Of a DNA stretch of 64,000 bases, positions 24,324 through 25,842 are shown one piece after another (the first letter of the stretch is position 1; each line of letters begins with the position of its first letter). This DNA comes from Buchnera aphidicola (Rhopalosiphum maidis) (GTDB lineage: Bacteria > Pseudomonadota > Gammaproteobacteria > Enterobacterales > Enterobacteriaceae). Both the position numbers and the translations under genes were made by a program. The stretch is from positions 62,001-126,000 of the forward strand of contig NZ_CP032759.1 in NCBI RefSeq assembly GCF_003671935.1, given 5' to 3'. The notes beneath the pieces are model-generated. The model did not search any database. It worked only from the letters and a program-made list of their open reading frames with translations, and was not told the DNA's origin.

Positions 24324-24472
24324 TATTAAAAGTTCCATTAAAATTTGATAGTTACAACTCAATGTTTTTGATATATTATACATCAAATTTATATTAACTT
24401 TTTTAGATTTTAAAGAATTATATTTTTATTTAAAAATTTAAAAAAAAAAACTACGTTAGTATTTAAAATTTT

Positions 24473-25503
24473 ATGTACAAAAAAAAAACTCTTCTCAATC
24501 TTTAAAAGATTTAAATACATTTTCAATAGATGTAACAGCAAAAAAAATTATTTTTGTTAATACAATTCAATCATTAGTTGATATATGGCAAAAATGCAAA
24601 GAATCTAATATTCCTTATATAATTTTAGGTGAAGGAAGCAACGTACTATTTTTAGAAAATTATAAAGGGATAGTTATTATTAACCGCATAAAGGGAATAA
24701 AAATTCAAGAACAAAAAAACATTTGGCTATTACATGTTTTTTCAGGAGAAAAATGGCATGATTTAGTTAAATACACATTACGAATGGGCCTATTCGGATT
24801 AGAAAACTTAGCTTTAATTCCTGGTTCAGTAGGATCAGCAGCTATTCAAAATATTGGTGCTTATGGTTTAGAACTAAAAAATATATGTCAGTATGTAGAC
24901 GTTATTTCTTTAGAAGAAAATAATATAATTAGATTGAAAAAAAAAATATGTAATTTTTCTTATCGAAGTAGTATTTTTAAATCCCAATACAATCATGGAT
25001 ACGCAATTGTTGCAGTTGGTATAAAAATACAAAAAAAATGGAAACCTATTATTTTTCCTGCTCTTTTAAAAAATAGAAAAATAATAAAAATAAACGCTTA
25101 TAAAATATTTAATATAGTATGTCAAATAAGAAAAGAAAAACTACCTAACCCTAAAAGATTAGGAAATGCAGGTAGTTTTTTTAAAAATCCTATTATCGCA
25201 CTTGAAAAAGCAAAAAAAATTTTATCTTCATACAATATTCCGTATTATTTTCAAAAAAATGGCTTTATAAAAATGTCTGCTGCTGCGTTAATTGAAAAAT
25301 GTAATTTTAAAAATATGCAAATTGGTGATGCAGCAATTTATAAAAAACAAAAACTTATATTAATCAATCTAAAAAAAGCAAATTCAAAAGAAATTTTGAG
25401 ATTAGCTCAAATAATACAAAGATGCATTTTAAAAAAATTTAAAATATACTTAGAACCTGAAATAGATTTTATTAATTCTTCAGGAAAGATAAAATTATTA
25501 TAA
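24473..25503 (+). pseudogene. murB: UDP-N-acetylenolpyruvoylglucosamine reductase, start interrupted at a poly-A tract
   Basis: MurB reduces UDP-GlcNAc-enolpyruvate to UDP-MurNAc for peptidoglycan. The frame matching E. coli MurB runs unbroken from about 24481 (SSQSLKDLNTFSID) through the FAD-binding ILGEGSNVLFLENY, LENLALIPGSVGSAAIQNIGAYG and NAGSFFKNP to the stop at 25503. It has no ATG, GTG or TTG before 24784, which lies past the FAD motif. An ATG sits at 24473, but it is one base out of frame: ATG TAC is followed by exactly ten A's (24479-24488), and that frame stops at 24503. Eleven A's would give a normal MurB N-terminus. Transcriptional slippage at the A run, known in Buchnera, could rescue it; a homopolymer sequencing error is the alternative. 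I label it disrupted, though probably functional. Confidence 0.85.
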
Positions 25504-25676: not shown

Positions 25677-25749
<73 letters not shown>

Positions 25750-25760
25750 TAACTTAACAA

Positions 25761-25842
<82 letters not shown>

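Follow-up and report, generated by a model that had tools for sequence, protein, structure and literature searches.

In Buchnera aphidicola from the aphid Rhopalosiphum maidis, the cell-wall gene murB is out of frame because the poly-A tract directly behind its start codon lacks one A. We consider it likely that murB is a working gene, read by means of RNA polymerase slips on this A10 tract, and that the same holds for murC, murD, murE and murF. This argument starts from what can be observed directly, namely the tracts, their off-by-one state, its recurrence among genomes and selection on the protein frames. The stretch of DNA analysed here (the window, G000:C1:62001-126000) covers 64,000 nucleotides of a genome of 642,929 bp. 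Its relevant features are the following, in window coordinates:

24473..24475, forward strand: murB start codon ATG, found at the corresponding place in 35 of 35 genomes compared
24479..24488, forward strand: A10 tract in murB codons 3-6, lacking one A relative to the MurB frame, where slippage is proposed (sequence, genome comparison)
24503..24505, forward strand: TAA ending the unslipped 10-codon product (sequence)
24481..25503, forward strand: MurB reading frame (UDP-N-acetylenolpyruvoylglucosamine reductase), otherwise intact (ORF, homology, dN/dS)
24526..24528, forward strand: ATA, start of the automatic call P0001 (325 aa), rival start (protein database, sequence)
24784..24786, forward strand: first in-frame ATG of the MurB frame (sequence)

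As the first-pass annotation had described, ATG 24473 is followed by TAC and ten A residues (24479-24488), and its frame is terminated at 24503, by TAA. The tract is followed by a C at 24489, and the ten codons of the frame read MYKKKTLLNL. The MurB frame is open from 24460 to 25503, with a TAG just before it. Scanning this frame revealed no ATG, GTG, TTG or CTG upstream of ATG 24784, which bears out the earlier claim of an open frame with none of the first three codons up to that position; the nearest near-cognate starts are ATA 24526, ATT 24547 and ATT 24550. The 340 amino acids encoded from 24481 match E. coli MurB (PDB 1mbb) with an E value of 1.5e-106 over query positions 6-338, in agreement with the resemblance noted initially. 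A profile search placed PF02873 above its cut-off, with a MurB match over the whole length, and its single match in the genome ruled out a second murB copy. Because the tract sits at codons 3-6, nearly the whole of MurB lies behind it. The homopolymer indel (run of at least 9) is the sole lesion of the gene, whose proper frame is free of stops, and a further A10 downstream within murB is in frame. Two tRNA genes lie directly 3′ of murB (window 25677-25842), and an Rfam scan around the gene returned nothing besides them. The plasmid records searched gave no match, and a promoter scan was uninformative, with 18 sites compared to 13.5 expected from shuffled sequences.

The first-pass annotation had proposed comparing the tract length in other Buchnera genomes. 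We compared 36, of which 35 contain murB. The remaining one, G024, is the sole genome without matches to either murB or the Mur ligase domain, and its cell-wall genes may be gone. The distance from the ATG to the LNTF motif is 42 nt in 21 genomes, 39 nt in 9, 36 nt in 1 and 38 nt in 4; three of the 42-nt distances were read by eye, the script having taken a later ATG. The 38-nt distance places murB off frame in 4 of 35 genomes: R. maidis (A10), R. padi (G009, A11), Melanaphis sacchari (G030, A9) and G025 (A10). R. maidis and R. padi thus have the same length over this stretch and differ at the tract ends (A10 and A11, respectively), and the symbiont of Schizaphis graminum (G001, Sg) carries an in-frame A12. 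On the tree, these murB states require at least three changes. The residues SLKDLNTF, encoded behind the tract and ahead of the first near-cognate start, are unchanged in the four off-frame genomes except for one D to Y replacement in M. sacchari. A second murB tract near residue 75 (A10) is one A short in G025 and G011, so that murB of G025 is off frame at both tracts. Among the best 120 of 7556 MurB database proteins, 10 sequences were examined. They include P0042, a 5-member cluster from another contig that is 100% identical to the R. padi frame and is called only from an internal ATG. P0004 and P0043, MurB calls with a shortened N-terminus and about 80% identity to the Rhopalosiphum-Schizaphis group, are maybe further off-frame species.

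Within the window, 49 genes could be matched to ORFs of the Acyrthosiphon pisum Tokyo symbiont (G029), two of them running off the window edges. These genes contain 59 A/T runs of at least 9 nucleotides (16 of at least 10), and the A10 of murB is the only one off frame. With G029 as comparison, none of the 48 genes besides murB showed a frame change; one of them (w38) ends two residues before its relative.

A different picture emerged from the cell-wall cluster, which we compared in 35 genomes (all but G024) using reference proteins from G029. In R. maidis Buchnera, murE, murF and murC each carry a single break, in a locus (G000:C1:533490-542455) that also holds murD:

G000:C1:534008-534017: murE A10, one A short (cluster comparison)
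G000:C1:535705-535714: murF A10, one A short (cluster comparison)
G000:C1:541296-541305: murC A10, one A short (cluster comparison)

Like murB, these three genes are free of in-frame stops once each side of the tract is read in its correct frame. The R. maidis murD is one base short at a T8, a run that is interrupted in R. padi and Sg and is T9 in several others; T8 lies below the homopolymer length of at least 9 found at murB, murC, murE and murF. ftsI, mraY, ftsW, murG and ddlB are intact, and both genes of the MurA/AroA domain family are whole. Thus, 5 of 10 cell-wall genes are broken versus 0 of 48 other window genes, a difference whose p value of 5.5e-5 is descriptive only, since the cell-wall set was chosen after murB had been seen.

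The off-frame state of these genes is not confined to R. maidis. murF lacks one A in 28 of 35 genomes (26 assigned by a distance of 170, G018 by a distance of 164 and G008 by a split match only); 6 others have it in frame, and in G030 it is short by two. For G015 and G028, the switch was placed at 234-235 beside a neighboring A10, and their total length shows the same deficit of one. One-short murF genes are spread over both halves of the tree. murF has been counted as four independent inactivations in a smaller genome set (PMC3164680); from our comparison, the one-short state looks long-standing or endlessly recurrent rather than like four separate losses. For murC, one short (10 of 35 genomes) is the only off-frame state, the other 25 being in frame. 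Of the 33 genomes in which the murE tract was measured, 4 are one short; G018 is two short or one long. ddlB was scored separately, because the reference G029 is itself split there: it lacks one base in 6 of 35 genomes (G029, G006, G010, G020, G027 and G032) and is off in the other direction in G011, all near A10 or A11 runs, and it is whole in R. maidis. With G008 set to one short for murF and murE restricted to the four A10 cases at that tract, a tree built from 2431 columns requires at minimum 7 changes for murC, 3 for murE and 7 for murF. Since several changes are needed, the mur states come and go or were partly inherited. The M. sacchari symbiont (G030) has breaks in ftsI, murB, murC, murD, murE and murF. 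Two of these breaks go the other way, and this symbiont is a candidate for real decay of cell-wall genes.

Grouping the breaks by site and direction, over the cluster comparison, the two murB tracts and ddlB, gave 14 classes one base short against 4 the other way (two-sided sign test, ∼0.03), classes that are not independent of phylogeny. The four opposite classes are murE in G018, murF in G030, murD in G030 (at no long run) and ddlB in G011. A narrower count without murD, ddlB and other cases gave 11 against 1 (p 0.006). We draw no conclusion from this bias, because deletion-biased replication slippage produces the same one and the classes are phylogenetically linked.

The broken genes are constrained at the protein level. 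Between R. maidis and R. padi, dN/dS is 0.27 for murB, 0.21 for murC, 0.18 for murE, 0.19 for murF and 0.24 for murD, compared to 0.17 for mraY, 0.18 for murG, 0.12 for ftsI, 0.09 for ftsW and 0.10 and 0.28 for the two parts of ddlB among the unbroken ones. murB is under purifying selection, and together with the retention of SLKDLNTF in off-frame genomes this upholds the initial statement that its frame is conserved. Its value is the highest of all genes compared except the second part of ddlB, a position near the top of the range that would allow for mild relaxation, and not every pair has a clearly low dN/dS across its first 37 codons (R. padi-Sg: 0.136 vs 0.093). For murF, both sides of the tract are constrained, with dN/dS of 0.10-0.43 across nine pairs of genomes that share the one-short state. 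In a simple neutral simulation at 0.10 to 0.20 changes per site, a mean of 40 to 73 stops accumulated over murB, murC, murE and murF, and 0 of 2000 runs per setting remained free of stops.

Based on these observations, we propose that RNA polymerase slips on the A10 tract during transcription, so that part of the murB mRNAs would gain one A. The resulting A11 mRNA would be translated from ATG 24473 into full-length MurB, and unslipped mRNA would yield a 10-residue peptide. We infer the slip itself, its transcriptional nature and its rate from the DNA. Slippage of this kind, which the first-pass annotation had suggested, is the best-supported reading because the off-by-one state recurs, the frame is constrained and free of further lesions, murC, murD, murE and murF are alike, and R. 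maidis Buchnera has been shown to make peptidoglycan (PMC9116674). The cell probably relies on such copying slips to read the five mur genes. With murC, murE and murF (A10) as well as murD (T8) in the same state as murB, the UDP-MurNAc-pentapeptide pathway from MurB to MurF would depend on slips. That MurB to MurF are all encoded one base off at homopolymers and the whole precursor pathway runs on polymerase slips has, in our judgement, an even chance of being true. The additional suggestion that the murB tract acts as a crude expression control is possible, with nothing in its favor beyond that. Insertions during Buchnera transcription are described as mostly single-base, located at A/T runs and rising with run length (PMC5574713). 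For frameshifted genes including cell-wall genes of an aphid endosymbiont, 12-50% corrected transcripts are given with reference to one study (PMC5009743), and one demonstration of this kind is placed in R. padi Buchnera (PMC3164680). Against this stands the statement that no frame-restoring transcription error was seen (PMC5574713). If slips were common enough for rescue, A10 runs that are in frame, like the second A10 of murB, would suffer from them too. Also to be weighed against this reading, the M. sacchari symbiont and G025 have additional breaks.

The frame could also be regained during translation, if the ribosome, meeting an A AAA AAN heptamer in phase, slipped back one base (–1) and continued in the MurB frame. 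Such a heptamer is present at the murB tract in 4 of 4 off-frame genomes, most breaks call for a shift in one and the same direction, and the sequence downstream of the tract folds better than shuffled sequences for murB (z –2.4) and murE (z –3.0). However, the heptamer occurs in any A-run of such length, no stimulatory fold is seen at murF (z +0.5) or murC (z –0.6), and the reports on sister Buchnera concern transcripts (PMC3164680, PMC5009743). Taken together, the z values of murB, murE, murF and murC give no consistent signal of a stimulator structure downstream of the tracts. Sequence as such does not separate a ribosomal –1 slip from a polymerase slip, and we regard the ribosomal route as unlikely though worth keeping in mind. 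The –1 equivalent shift on an A-rich slippery sequence resembles –1 ribosomal frameshifting of the E. coli dnaX type; unlike dnaX, murB and the other mur genes show no consistent stimulator structure, and one product is needed rather than two.

Alternatively, murB could be a very young pseudogene, in a symbiont that is losing wall synthesis and in which homopolymer indels are the first lesions. Five pathway genes are affected in one genome, murB has no match at all in G024, its dN/dS lies at the upper end of its set, and murF has been treated as repeatedly inactivated (PMC3164680). This is improbable in view of dN/dS, which falls within the range of the unbroken neighbors. Moreover, several species have these states in common, with 28 of 35 genomes carrying a murF that lacks one A; murB, murC, murE and murF of R. 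maidis have no additional lesions; and the wall of R. maidis Buchnera has been labelled (PMC9116674). Translation might instead begin at the non-canonical ATA 24526, from which P0001 is called, and the four off-frame genomes carry ATA or ATT at the equivalent place. ATA is a poor start codon, and initiation here is very unlikely because it drops the conserved SLKDLNTF, of which SLK..NTF can be aligned to E. coli MurB. P0036, the call for M. sacchari, begins elsewhere, and the upstream ATG is kept. Homopolymers are a weak point of PacBio assembly, the method behind the R. maidis Buchnera genome, which was polished with Arrow and Pilon, so the A10 could be an error for A11. There is very little to be said for this, since relatives (R. 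padi, M. sacchari and G025, as separate genomes) have the same off-by-one length with different tracts and the other 58 long runs in window genes are in frame. The P0042 cluster, called from an internal ATG as well, also speaks against it.

Rescue by polymerase slippage thus remains our preferred reading, and the phenomenon is of a known kind, of which murB is a further member. In phase-variable loci, homopolymer length sets the in-frame or off-frame state, and the mur tracts likewise vary between such states among genomes. Tamas et al. (2008) reportedly described endosymbiont genes with frameshifts in poly(A) tracts at which slipping of the polymerase rescues expression, a phenomenon also treated in PMC5009743, PMC3164680 and PMC3017870. 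The present case shares with these genes a single indel in a long A-run, an otherwise intact and constrained gene, an insect endosymbiont host and a cell-wall function, and one demonstration is from the close relative in R. padi. It differs in the position of the murB tract at codons 3-6 and in that a single genome has five genes of the same pathway affected; the described genes have transcript evidence, whereas murB is known from DNA. Homopolymer frameshifts in Blochmannia are similar in that off-frame tracts occur in otherwise intact genes and are partly common to several species (PMC3017870). They concern another symbiont and other genes, while Buchnera murF is off frame in 28 of 35. Searches of open-licence papers gave no mention of either the murB case or the pattern across the pathway, though Tamas et al. 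(2008) may contain part of it.

The finding bears on a puzzle of this symbiont. R. maidis Buchnera makes peptidoglycan, as a D-alanine probe was incorporated into its wall, and in the same report murC, murE and murF are scored as lost and a compensation of unknown kind is proposed (PMC9116674). According to its methods, coding sequences with internal stops or frameshifts were removed, one passage names MurF as the only remaining ligase, at odds with the rest of the paper, and a term search of the main text found neither "slippage" nor "Tamas" (PMC9116674). The wall was labelled in line Rma-NM-1 (PMC9116674), and the genome was sequenced from BTI-1 (PMC6451198, PMC11193766), a project whose raw genomic and RNA-Seq reads are available as SRP164762. 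Our results suggest that murC, murE and murF are not lost in R. maidis Buchnera, but present, constrained and one A short. If so, the "loss" of these genes in Aphidini and the proposed compensation would be an annotation effect, and murF would be read via slips through most of the radiation of Aphidinae symbionts. The peptidoglycan puzzle of R. maidis Buchnera thereby becomes experimentally testable, and for AT-rich symbionts, tables of gene presence and absence may miss some of the genes that carry homopolymer shifts.
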